From: an uncultured bacterium
GTDB taxonomy: Bacteria; Verrucomicrobiota; Lentisphaeria; Oligosphaerales; Oligosphaeraceae
DNA: 5,566 nucleotides
Assembly: GCA_902783355.1 (NCBI GenBank)
Contig: CACZQQ010000285.1
Location: 1 to 5,566, forward strand
Direction: 5' to 3'
This document shows positions 2,772 through 5,566 of the stretch, piece after piece. The notes under the pieces were generated by a model. It ran no database searches, had not been told where the DNA came from, and saw only the letters and a list, made by a program, of their open reading frames with translations. Every line of letters begins with the position of its first letter. The stretch's first letter is position 1. A program made the position numbers and the translations under genes.

Positions 2772-3317
2772 ATGATTCCCAGCGACCACTTCGTGCGCTT
2801 CTACAACGAAGTCTTCAAGTTCCTCGACCCCATCGGCGGCCTGCCCGACTACTATCTGGAAATCAGCCGCGACCAGGAGCTTCATTGCCTTAAACTCTTC
2901 TGGGAGAAAGGGTTAGCAGGAATGAAGGAATACTGGGATGCCATCCACAAGGAGGAGAACTGCGTCACAAACACCAAATACGAGAACGGCATGCGCTACG
3001 GCGGGCAGCTCATCTGCCCAAGCCTCTCCAAGGTGCTCGACTGCGACGCCACCGCCTGCGAAAAGTACTGCTGGCACTGCCCCGGCTGGGTCCATCCCCT
3101 CATCACCAAATGCGGCTTCTACGGCGCCTACAACATCATCGACCCGCTCAAGCCGCAGTGCCGCGCCTGCATCACGGAAGACCGCGCCAAGGCGGAGAAG
3201 TGGCTCGCCGACGAAATGGCCAACGGCGCCAGGCCCGAATGCATCAAGACCAACTTCGACAAGGCCGACGAAATCGAGCGCAACAAGGCGAAGCGCCACG
3301 CCGAAGGCTGGACCTGA
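2772..3317 (+). CDS. Cysteine-rich protein of unknown function, tandem copy 2
   Basis: This is a paralog of the preceding gene: 181 residues, gap-free, differing at 24 positions by hand count (about 87% identity). The first 56 residues are identical. The densest replacement patch is residues 57-76 (8 of 20). All ten cysteines of copy 1 are kept, and an eleventh is gained at residue 157 (Tyr to Cys). The core motif is [13 protein letters not shown] (91-103), followed by CRAC (130-133). The start is set by AAAGGAG (2758-2764), seven bases before the ATG. The 53-base gap after copy 1 holds no terminator, so the pair is probably co-transcribed, and a hairpin terminator follows 28 bases after the stop. 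Conserved cysteines, and silent changes without replacements at the N-terminus, indicate that both copies are under selection. Function is unknown; metal or Fe-S binding is an inference from cysteine spacing alone. Confidence 0.88.
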
Positions 3318-3344
3318 TCGGCTGAAAAAAACTTCTCTTTCCAC

Positions 3345-3373
3345 GGGGTGTCCGTCTGCGGGCGCCCCTTTTT
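3345..3373 (+). terminator. Intrinsic (Rho-independent) terminator after the cysteine-rich pair
   Basis: The 10-base arms GGGGTGTCCG (3345-3354) and CGGGCGCCCC (3359-3368) pair completely, with two G-T pairs, around the loop TCTG, and five T residues follow at once (3369-3373). An A-run lies upstream at 3325-3331. The hairpin ends the rbgA-truB-ribF-cysteine-rich transcript 28 bases after the last stop and separates it from clpB. Confidence 0.87.
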
Positions 3374-3393
3374 ATTTCCATGGTGTGACATTC

Positions 3394-3419
3394 TGGCACG
3401 CCGTACATTTGGCACGCCG
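3394..3419 (+). repeat. Direct repeat of the -24 promoter half (TGGCACGCCG twice)
   Basis: TGGCACGCCG occurs at 3394-3403 and again at 3410-3419, 16 bases apart. The second copy is the -24 half of the proposed sigma-54 promoter. The first has the -24 element (CTGGCACG) but AT where the -12 GC should be (3407-3408), so it is not a complete promoter by itself. It may be a decoy polymerase site, a relic of promoter duplication, or part of a regulator binding site. Confidence 0.6.
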
Positions 3420-3425
3420 CTTGCA
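3409..3425 (+). promoter_or_regulatory. Sigma-54 (RpoN) -24/-12 promoter of clpB
   Basis: TTGGCACG-CCGC-TTGCA matches the sigma-54 consensus YTGGCACG-N4-TTGCW at every defined position. The invariant GG (3411-3412) and GC (3423-3424) are separated by exactly 10 bases. Placing the C of GC at -12 predicts transcription from about 3436, giving a leader of about 33 bases before the clpB ATG. Sigma-54 promoters need an enhancer-binding AAA+ activator, whose site would usually lie 80-150 bases upstream, here inside the terminator and the 3' end of the second cysteine-rich gene. I see no clear palindrome there, and no convincing sigma-70 promoter in the gap. Confidence 0.8.
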
Positions 3426-3455
3426 TTATCCGTGTGTCAAAATCCATTCAACCGC

Positions 3456-3461
3456 AGGAGG
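3456..3461 (+). promoter_or_regulatory. Strong ribosome binding site of clpB
   Basis: AGGAGG lies seven bases before the ATG at 3469, and the match continues as AGGAGGTGA, close to the full anti-Shine-Dalgarno complement. It fixes the clpB start and is the strongest ribosome binding site in the window, in keeping with a protein made in bulk on demand. Confidence 0.85.
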
Positions 3462-3468
3462 TGAATTT

Positions 3469-5566
3469 ATGAACTACGACAAACTGACAGTCAAATCACG
3501 TGAATGCTTTGCAGAGGGCCAGAAGCTGGCCGCCAAGCTCAACCATCAGGAACTCAAGGCGATGCATCTGCTGTCGGCCATGCTGCAGCAGGAGGGAGGC
3601 CTCGTGCAGTCCGTCCTGGAGCGCCTCGGCCGCACGTCGGCGGCGCTGCTGCCGGCGGTGGACGACGCGCTCGCCAAGCTGCCGCATGTCACAGGCGACG
3701 TGGGGCAGGTCTACGCCGGCGCCGAAGTCAGCGCCGTCCTCGCCAGCGCCGACAAGTGCCGCGAGACCTTCAGGGACGACTTCATCAGCGTGGAGCATCT
3801 GCTGCTGGGCATCCTGGAGGGGGACAGCGAGGCCGCGCGGCTGCTCAAGTCCAACGGCATCGGCACCACGGAGGCCCTGAACGCCATCAAGGAGATCCGC
3901 GGCAACCAGCGCGTCAGCAACGAGGATCCCGAGGCCACCTACGAGGCCCTGAAGAAATACGGCGTGGACCTGACCGAAAAGGCGGTGCAGCACAAGCTGG
4001 ACCCCGTCATCGGGCGTGACGACGAGATCCGGCGCGTCATCCAGATCCTGTCGCGGCGCACGAAGAACAACCCCGTGCTCATCGGCGAGCCGGGCGTCGG
4101 CAAGACCGCCATCGCCGAGGGGCTTGCCGGCCGGATCGTGGCCGGCGACGTCCCCGAGGGCCTCAAGAACCACAAGCTCATCGCGCTGGACATGGGCGCG
4201 CTCGTCGCCGGCGCCAAATACCGCGGCGAGTTCGAGGAGCGCCTGAAGGCCGTCCTCAACGAGGTCACCAAGTCCGAAGGGCAGATCATCCTCTTCATCG
4301 ACGAGCTGCACACGGTCGTGGGGGCCGGCGGCGGCGAAGGCGCCATGGACGCCGGCAACATCCTCAAGCCCATGCTGGCCAGGGGCGAACTGCACTGCAT
4401 CGGCGCGACCACCCTCAACGAATACAGAAAGTACATTGAAAAGGACGCCGCGCTGGAGCGGCGCTTCCAGACCGTCCTCGTCAAGCCGCCCACGGTGGAG
4501 GACACCGTCTCCATCCTGCGCGGCCTGCGCGAGCGCTACGAACTCCACCACGGCGTCACCATCCGCGACTCCGCCCTGGTCGCCGCCGCGACCCTCTCCG
4601 ACCGCTATGTCGCCGACCGCTTCCTGCCCGACAAGGCCATCGACCTGGTGGACGAGGCCGCCGCGCGGCTGCGCACCGAAATCGACTCGCGGCCCCTGGA
4701 GCTGGACGAGGCCGTCCGCCGCAAGCTGCAGCTGGAGATCGAGCTGGCCGGCCTGCGGAAGGACAGCGACGACGCGGCCACGCGCGAACGCATCGCGCGC
4801 CTCGAAGAGGAACTGCGCAAGGTGGCCGCCGAGGCCGACGGGCTGGACGCGCGCTGGAAGGCCGAGAAGGAGGCCATCGGGCAGCTGCGCGGCCTCAAGG
4901 AATCCCTCGAAGTGGCCCGCCACCAGGCCGACGGCGCCCGCAGCCACGGCGACCTGGAGACCGCCAGCAAGCTCCTCTACGAGACGATTCCTTCACTCAA
5001 GAAGCAGATCGCCGCGCTGGAGGAGAAGTCCACGAAGGAGCGGCAGGACGGCGGCGTCCACCGCCTCCTCCGCGAGGAGGTCACGGAGGACGACATCGCC
5101 GAAATCATCAGCCGTTGGACGGGCATCCCCGTCACCAAGCTGGTGCAGGGCGAACGCGAGAAGCTCCTGCAGCTGCCGGAGCGGCTCCACCAGCGCGTCG
5201 TGGGGCAGGAAAACGCCGTGGCGGCGGTCTCCGAGGCCATCCTGCGGGCGCGGGCGGGCCTCCAGGACCCCGCGCGCCCCATCGGCTCCTTCATGTTCCT
5301 CGGCCCCACGGGCGTCGGCAAGACCGAACTGGCCAAGACGCTGGCCGCCGCGCTCTTCGACGACGAACGCGCCCTCGTGCGCATCGACATGTCCGAATAC
5401 ATGGAGAAGTTCTCCGTGTCGCGCCTGGTCGGCGCGCCTCCGGGCTACGTCGGCTACGACGAGGGCGGCCAGCTCACCGAGGCCGTCCGCCGCAGGCCCT
5501 ACAGCGTCCTCCTCTTCGATGAAATCGAGAAGGCGCATCCCGACGTCTTCAACATCCTCCTGCAGG
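3469..5566 (+). CDS. clpB: ATP-dependent disaggregase ClpB (3' end outside window)
   Basis: ClpB is a hexameric AAA+ unfoldase that works with DnaK to pull polypeptides out of aggregates. The frame is open from the ATG at 3469 to the right edge, giving 699 of about 865 expected residues. Order: Clp N-domain with two repeats (about 1-145); first AAA+ domain beginning [18 protein letters not shown], with Walker A GEPGVGKT (206-213), pore loop [12 protein letters not shown] (Tyr251), Walker B ILFIDE (Asp278-Glu279) and arginine fingers Arg331-Arg332; a full-length coiled-coil M-domain (about 405-535), which favours ClpB over ClpC or ClpA; then WTGIPV and the second AAA+ domain with Walker A GPTGVGKT (612-619), pore loop GYVGY (Tyr660) and Walker B LLFDE (Asp684-Glu685). 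All catalytic residues visible are intact. The end of the second AAA+ domain (sensors, arginine finger) is cut off. It is separated from upstream genes by a terminator and has its own apparent sigma-54 promoter. Confidence 0.97.

Follow-up and report, generated by a model that had tools for sequence, protein, structure and literature searches.

How is the chaperone gene clpB, which encodes an ATP-dependent disaggregase, switched on in Lentisphaeria? The question is raised by the window analysed here, a stretch of 5,566 nucleotides (nt) from contig CACZQQ010000285.1 of an uncultured gut bacterium of the family Oligosphaeraceae (assembly GCA_902783355.1), which ends in the 5′ part of clpB. The heat-shock controls known as sigma-32, HrcA/CIRCE, HspR/HAIR and CtsR have overlapping target genes. 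An original prediction, made from the letters of the window, had instead placed a sigma-54 promoter before clpB and proposed that an RpoN activator ties disaggregase output to a specific signal rather than to a general heat-shock factor. From sequence comparisons across the class, we consider it very probable that chaperone genes throughout Lentisphaeria form a sigma-54 regulon under an AtoC-like response regulator as its activator, and that the clpB site of the window is one of its members.

The predicted promoter, TTGGCACGCCGCTTGCA, spans positions 3409-3425 of the forward strand, with GG at 3411-3412, GC at 3423-3424 and ten nucleotides between them. The sigma-54 consensus used for scoring consists of a GG-N10-GC core inside TTGGCAC-N5-TTGC, which TTGGCACGCCGCTTGC at 3409-3424 matches at 12 of 12 bases. 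The pattern TTGGCACGNNNNTTGC is matched exactly at one place in the window, and 200 dinucleotide shuffles produced no such match. Among 5,000 shuffles of the 151-nt intergenic stretch (3318-3468), no 12/12 match arose on the forward strand, and 28 contained one of at least 10/12. The site lies downstream of a terminator, and the clpB ATG (3469) follows 44 positions past 3425, with AGGAGG immediately 5′ of it. The spacing predicts a transcription start near 3436; the leader would then be about 33 nt long and include a good ribosome binding site. The site, its spacing, its distance to clpB, the terminator and the ribosome binding site were all found as originally described (Table 1).

Table 1. 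Coordinates of the features at the clpB end of the window.
Feature	Position	Strand	Basis
Sigma-54 (-24/-12) promoter, predicted, TTGGCACG-CCGC-TTGC	3409..3424	+	12/12 consensus bases
Probable activator site (upstream activating sequence), palindrome TGTGACA-TTC-TGGCACG	3384..3400, centre 3392, 19 nt before -24 GG	+	12/14 to class motif
clpB, ATP-dependent disaggregase, first 699 codons	3469..5566, runs off window	+	family matches
Terminator-like hairpin, then T run; separates clpB from upstream gene	3345..3368	+	
Ribosome binding site region CAGGAGGT	3455..3462	+	sequence

The promoter-like site is conserved. The nearest clpB N-termini belong to four Victivallales bins from ruminants (62-64% identity), and in all four nearest relatives TTGGCAYG-N4-ATGC is kept before clpB; rpoN was likewise found in all four genomes. 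Loss of the -24/-12 bases in close relatives or a lack of rpoN had been named as observations that would refute the prediction, and neither was seen in these relatives. A clpB match was obtained in 171 of 197 class genomes (26 had none); 149 of the upstream regions were examined and 22 left out. Together with the window they form a set of 150, the 149 being made up of 29 of the 30 best loci and 120 loci added later; the upstream region at L425 is shorter than 300 nt. Before counting we dropped L085-L088, which are the same places as L001-L004, and L103 (genome G042), where the contig ends just 5′ of clpB. Of the 150 upstream regions, 133 contain a sigma-54 site, its GG and GC in register, that scores 9/12 or more, and in 105 the score is 10/12 or more, so that most of the class retains the -24/-12 bases. 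In 300-nt background stretches of the same class the corresponding counts were 58 and 6 of 1,432, and shuffled sequences reached 10/12 in 8 of 1,800 cases.

A second element accompanies the promoter. The class motif is a 17-bp palindrome, TGYGACA-N3-TGTCRCA, with TGGCACA or TGACACA as right-arm variants, and in the window the degenerate palindrome TGTGACATTCTGGCACG at 3384-3400 is the sole stretch scoring at least 11/14. Its right arm is the second TGGCACG of the region (3394-3400); this copy was rejected as a tandem sigma-54 promoter because no -12 element stands in register with it. A palindrome of at least 12/14 was found in 85 of the 150 clpB upstream regions, as against 6 of 1,432 background stretches and 5 of 1,800 shuffles, and in 64 of 150, as against 0 of 1,432, a sigma-54 site scoring 10/12 or better accompanied it. 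The motif was defined after the first upstream regions had been inspected, and the 30 best loci are therefore not an independent test; in the independent subset formed by the last 60 regions fetched, 41 had the sigma-54 site and 30 the palindrome at these cut-offs. Neither element reached its cut-off (at least 10/12 and 12/14, respectively) in any of 66 clpB upstream regions of other bacteria, mostly Bacillaceae, taken from the loci longer than 8 kb among L005-L080.

The distance from the palindrome centre to the -24 GG is variable but phased, clustering near 19 (the window), 30, 41, 52, 63 and 74 nt. After removal of similar promoters, the clpB spacings (n = 61) gave a vector strength R of 0.59 at a period of 11 bp and a phase of 8.1 (Rayleigh p of about 6e-10, a value that does not fully allow for relatedness and the chosen period). 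The window spacing of 19 equals 8 modulo 11 and fits the class phase; in the four nearest relatives the palindrome lies at 41-42 nt, so that the window palindrome is two 11-bp steps nearer. A fixed helical face over a variable distance is what would be expected if DNA looping brought an enhancer-bound activator to a promoter-bound polymerase. The original proposal that clpB is controlled through an RpoN activator gains support from this conserved, helically phased palindrome. That the sigma-54 match is a functionless coincidence was a fair concern for a short motif first noted in a single sequence; given the empty shuffles, the conservation above background and the phasing in relatives, we regard it as extremely improbable.

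The same architecture precedes other chaperone genes. In the 27 of 30 searched genomes that make up the dnaK set, a sigma-54 site of at least 10/12 lies upstream of dnaK in 25 (two lack it), and the palindrome scores at least 12/14 in 19 and at least 11/14 in 24. With similar promoters removed (n = 18), the dnaK spacings gave an R of 0.80 at 11 bp and a phase of 8.0 (p of about 1e-5, with the same limits on its correction as for clpB). A groES match was present in 26 of 30 genomes, of which 25 loci were used (L326, a short contig start, was dropped). In each of the 25, DnaK is encoded directly upstream of groES, with a gap of about 56-175 nt in 24 loci and of 588 nt in the remaining one, and groEL motifs are present as well (L318-L343). 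As dnaK, groES and groEL cluster together, one promoter could serve all three.

A strict pattern that combines one palindrome arm with a sigma-54 site 12-42 nt further on, and leaves the other arm and the phase free, matched 59 times in 49 of the 197 class genomes, compared with nine matches for a backward control pattern. Chaperone or protease genes follow 33 of the 59 matches: clpB 14, hsp20 nine, dnaK eight, and htpG and clpP one each, the htpG gene lying 313 nt downstream. One clpB assignment (G144) was made by coordinates alone; family scans confirmed the identity of hsp20 (all nine genes), clpP, htpG and dnaK (the three class genes scanned). Of the remaining 26 matches, 16 were read, and most lie in reading frames or before unrelated genes. 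The features left free by the pattern separate the two groups: the palindrome scores at least 11/14 in 30 of 33 chaperone or protease matches and in 1 of the 16 others, and the spacing falls at 6-9 modulo 11 in 33 of 33 and 5 of 16, respectively. Since the same architecture is found at dnaK (with groES and groEL behind it) and, in some genomes, at hsp20, htpG and clpP, sigma-54 itself looks like the general chaperone control, and the second half of the original proposal, a specific signal in place of a general heat-shock factor, finds no support.

The spread of spacings also bears on what binds the palindrome. It might be the operator of an unrelated regulator, a repressor or a co-activator, acting on a sigma-54 promoter. 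The palindrome reads TGTGA-N7-TCACA, one base longer than a site built from the CRP-type half-site consensus, and in the window it lies near the promoter, where a repressor could act. Its distance, however, ranges from 19 to more than 100 nt while a single helical phase is kept at clpB, dnaK and hsp20, and we consider an unrelated regulator quite unlikely.

Judged by the strict pattern, the predicted promoter-palindrome architecture reaches outside the class, in few genomes. In a phylum sample of 387 genomes, 256 of them by inference outside Lentisphaeria, the outside genomes gave 39 matches, of which 34 were read. Ten matches in eight genomes precede dnaK (five genomes) or hsp20 (four genomes), one genome having both; family checks covered all four hsp20 and one DnaK. 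At these chaperone promoters the palindrome scores at least 12/14 in 7 of 9 and the class phase is kept in 8 of 9; a clear palindrome was not found at dnaK of G332 and G296. Glutamine synthetase genes are classic sigma-54 targets, and in one outside genome (G448, locus L280) we saw a sigma-54 site before a gene that reads by eye as glutamine synthetase.

Neither HrcA nor an RpoH above its family cut-off was detected. HrcA was found in none of the 197 class genomes and none of the 387 phylum genomes, compared with 7 of 14 control genomes; as it is missing from the whole phylum sample, we dropped its absence as a class-specific trait. No class genome had an RpoH match over the family cut-off (0 of 197; 2 of 14 controls were over). 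With the consensus sequences of the CIRCE, HAIR and CtsR operators, the window gave no CIRCE match with up to three mismatches allowed and no HAIR or CtsR match; the HspR and CtsR proteins were not searched. It is conceivable that clpB is transcribed mainly from an unseen sigma-70-family promoter and that the sigma-54 site is minor or tandem to it, as at chlamydial hrcA-grpE. Other sigma factors do exist in the class. Against this, the stretch 3200-3600 showed no sigma-70-type site in a simple consensus scan, blind to other promoter types, and many relatives retain the sigma-54 site; we judge a mainly sigma-70-driven clpB to be unlikely.

Which protein would activate these promoters? The candidate is an AtoC-like response regulator with a receiver domain (PF00072), a sigma-54 AAA+ domain (PF00158) and an HTH_8 domain (PF02954) in the two proteins scanned (G055, G092). 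Among at most eight candidates scored per genome, it has one match at E ≤ 1e-120 in 158 of 197 genomes. Its nearest NCBIfam family is AtoC, but its score stays below the cut-off (497 versus 714 bits), hence AtoC-like only. In 27 of the 30 nearest orthologs the gene immediately before that of the regulator, read in the same direction, encodes a PAS histidine kinase like those of G055, G053 and G092, and two of the three exceptions have no room on the contig; the G055 kinase is nearest to AtoS, below that family's cut-off. In an inventory of sigma-54 activators in 19 genomes (12 class, 7 outside), five class genomes (G055, G086, G144, G141 and G166) hold a single strong activator, which by coordinates is the AtoC-like regulator. 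In four of the five, clpB or dnaK has both the promoter and the palindrome; G166 gave no clpB match. The recognition helix SRRT occurs in 44 of 46 extracted proteins; L316 has GRRT in its place, and L378 is a different activator; the extraction pattern gave no yield at L217, L223, L218, L387, L380, L392, L388, L389, L390, L400, L397 and G332. By elimination on these draft genomes, the AtoC-like regulator is probably the activator of the palindrome sites.

If promoter and palindrome are real, the activator could still be another enhancer-binding protein, for example one of the RtcR-like ones that are also present, or several that share sites. The inventory gives this some room, as 14 of the 19 genomes hold 2 to 5 strong activators, and four of the five AtoC-like gene neighbourhoods scanned contain no palindrome of at least 12/14. 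The genomes with the AtoC-like regulator as single strong activator, four of them with sites, and the steadiness of its recognition helix argue the other way, and we hold a different or shared activator to be a doubtful but not negligible alternative to the AtoC-like regulator. In the fifth neighbourhood (G092), a 12/14 palindrome (L253:4788-4804) lies 88 nt before the PAS kinase gene and may point to feedback on the kinase-regulator operon. Self-control of this operon or of rpoN was dropped as unsupported, the candidates being this one palindrome and two unassigned 10/12 sites, the first in L082 and the second in L254. Separately, L210 (G148) and L211 (G179) encode a second activator, whose N-terminus is unfamiliar. 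Upstream of its reading frame stands TTGGCACGGGAAATGC or TTGGCACGGAAAATGC, which suggests that its own gene may be under sigma-54 control.

Several observations weigh against a class-wide regulon run by the AtoC-like regulator. At the cut-off scores, 45 of the 150 clpB upstream regions have no sigma-54 site, 65 no palindrome and 86 not the pair. The window palindrome is just 12/14 and is centred at -44, closer than usual enhancers. The evidence for rpoN and the regulator comes from relatives' genomes. No regulator match at the strict cut-off was found in 39 of 197 genomes, and the kinase gene is upstream in just 3 of 16 further regulator loci. The genomes are mostly metagenome drafts in which an only activator may reflect gaps, and G144, G141 and G166 were picked because an earlier search had shown few candidates in them. 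The multiple activators of most inventoried genomes count here as well. Finally, sigma-70-family matches below the RpoH cut-off are present in 194 of 197 genomes, and such a protein could share heat-shock control.

The predicted promoter and enhancer are nevertheless well supported in the class by their conservation, and from them we infer promoter use, binding of the palindrome, the identity of the activator and induction by protein-folding stress. In the mechanism that we propose, RpoN holoenzyme would sit closed at -24/-12, and the activator would dimerise on TGYGACA-N3-TGTCRCA, 19 to about 160 nt upstream of -24 and on a preferred helical face. It would then form an AAA+ ring and open the promoter by ATP hydrolysis. 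The genes so controlled would be clpB and those of the dnaK-groES-groEL cluster, joined in at least some genomes by hsp20, htpG and clpP. Most likely the activator would be the AtoC-like response regulator, which is found once per genome and whose gene, in the nearest orthologs, immediately follows that of a PAS histidine kinase. On balance we lean towards a broader reading, in which Lentisphaeria and some genomes of the same phylum outside the class have rebuilt the general heat-shock response as an enhancer-driven sigma-54 system: the AtoC-like activator would sense proteotoxic stress via its kinase and switch clpB, dnaK-groES-groEL, hsp20, htpG and clpP, replacing sigma-32 or HrcA.

By Pfam and NCBIfam scans, the window contains the end of a gene whose match to a GTPase domain is weak (20.5 bits against a cut-off of 21.9), truB, ribF, two copies of a 181-amino-acid gene and the 5′ part of clpB. 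The clpB product has the Pfam domains Clp_N, AAA, AAA_lid_9 and AAA_2; it scores 1104 bits to TIGR03346 (ClpB), short of the 1232 required of a full-length protein, as the window stops inside the gene. The 181-amino-acid gene forms a tandem duplicate (2173-2718 and 2772-3317) that is cysteine-rich by eye. The two copies are identical at 157 of 181 residues and at 90% of bases, and no Pfam or NCBIfam family matched. The gene has 779 homologs, and the names among the best 120 are all Lentisphaerota (Victivallales, Oligosphaeraceae, Lentisphaeria, Lentisphaerae). These names and the nearest clpB N-termini place the window in Lentisphaeria, with a likeness to Victivallales. The window contains no Rfam element such as a thermometer at the gathering threshold and no tRNA.

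In Bradyrhizobium, the chaperonin operon groESL3 is controlled by NifA and sigma-54, one paralogue being tied to nitrogen fixation. The likeness to Lentisphaeria lies in a chaperonin operon under a sigma-54 activator. Systems based on sigma-32 and HrcA differ from that of the class, where neither RpoH nor HrcA was found. In Myxococcus xanthus, as described in part of PMC9109919, a kinase and an NtrC-like response regulator (HsfB/HsfA) directly control the heat-shock gene lonD. In contrast to a class-wide dnaK-groESL-clpB core, HsfBA serves one heat-shock gene along with secondary-metabolite and motility genes, and its kinase is a hybrid (same excerpts of PMC9109919). Chlamydia offers an AtoC-like activator, CtcC (AtoC), a sigma-54 promoter at hrcA-grpE and a rise of atoC RNA on heat shock, according to excerpts of PMC7482065 and PMC8762339. 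The same excerpts describe a CtcC without a DNA-binding domain, retention of HrcA and a sigma-66 promoter, and a fall of rpoN on heat shock, whereas Lentisphaeria have no HrcA match and do have an enhancer palindrome.

The link between sigma-54 and chaperones is not new in itself and has already been predicted in other phyla. Excerpts of a 2025 computational survey (PMC12316311) report enrichment of sigma-54 promoters at chaperone genes of Bacteroidota and Planctomycetota (GroEL, IbpA, GroES, GrpE, DnaJ, DnaK, HSP90 and COG0542) and state that grpE and groES of Bacteroides thetaiotaomicron are sigma-54-dependent. Its main text contains neither 'Lentisphaer' nor 'clpB', and its excerpts name no enhancer motif, phasing or activator for chaperone genes. 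The excerpted text of PMC4641369 and PMC3162934 contains no chaperone regulon. In the open-access literature, with few subscription papers, we found nothing on sigma-54 heat shock in Lentisphaerae or on heat-shock sigma factors in Kiritimatiell- (as a word stem). Neither the proposed class-wide regulon, nor its enhancer and phase, nor the candidate regulator appears in these excerpts.

If our reading is true, chaperone output in these bacteria would be coupled both to a phosphorylation signal and to the opening of promoters at the expense of ATP. As a specific DNA site and a specific candidate regulator are now at hand, the sensing of folding stress becomes directly testable in a phylum without detected HrcA. 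Lentisphaeria would, it appears, run their core protein-repair genes by a switch not usually used for them.
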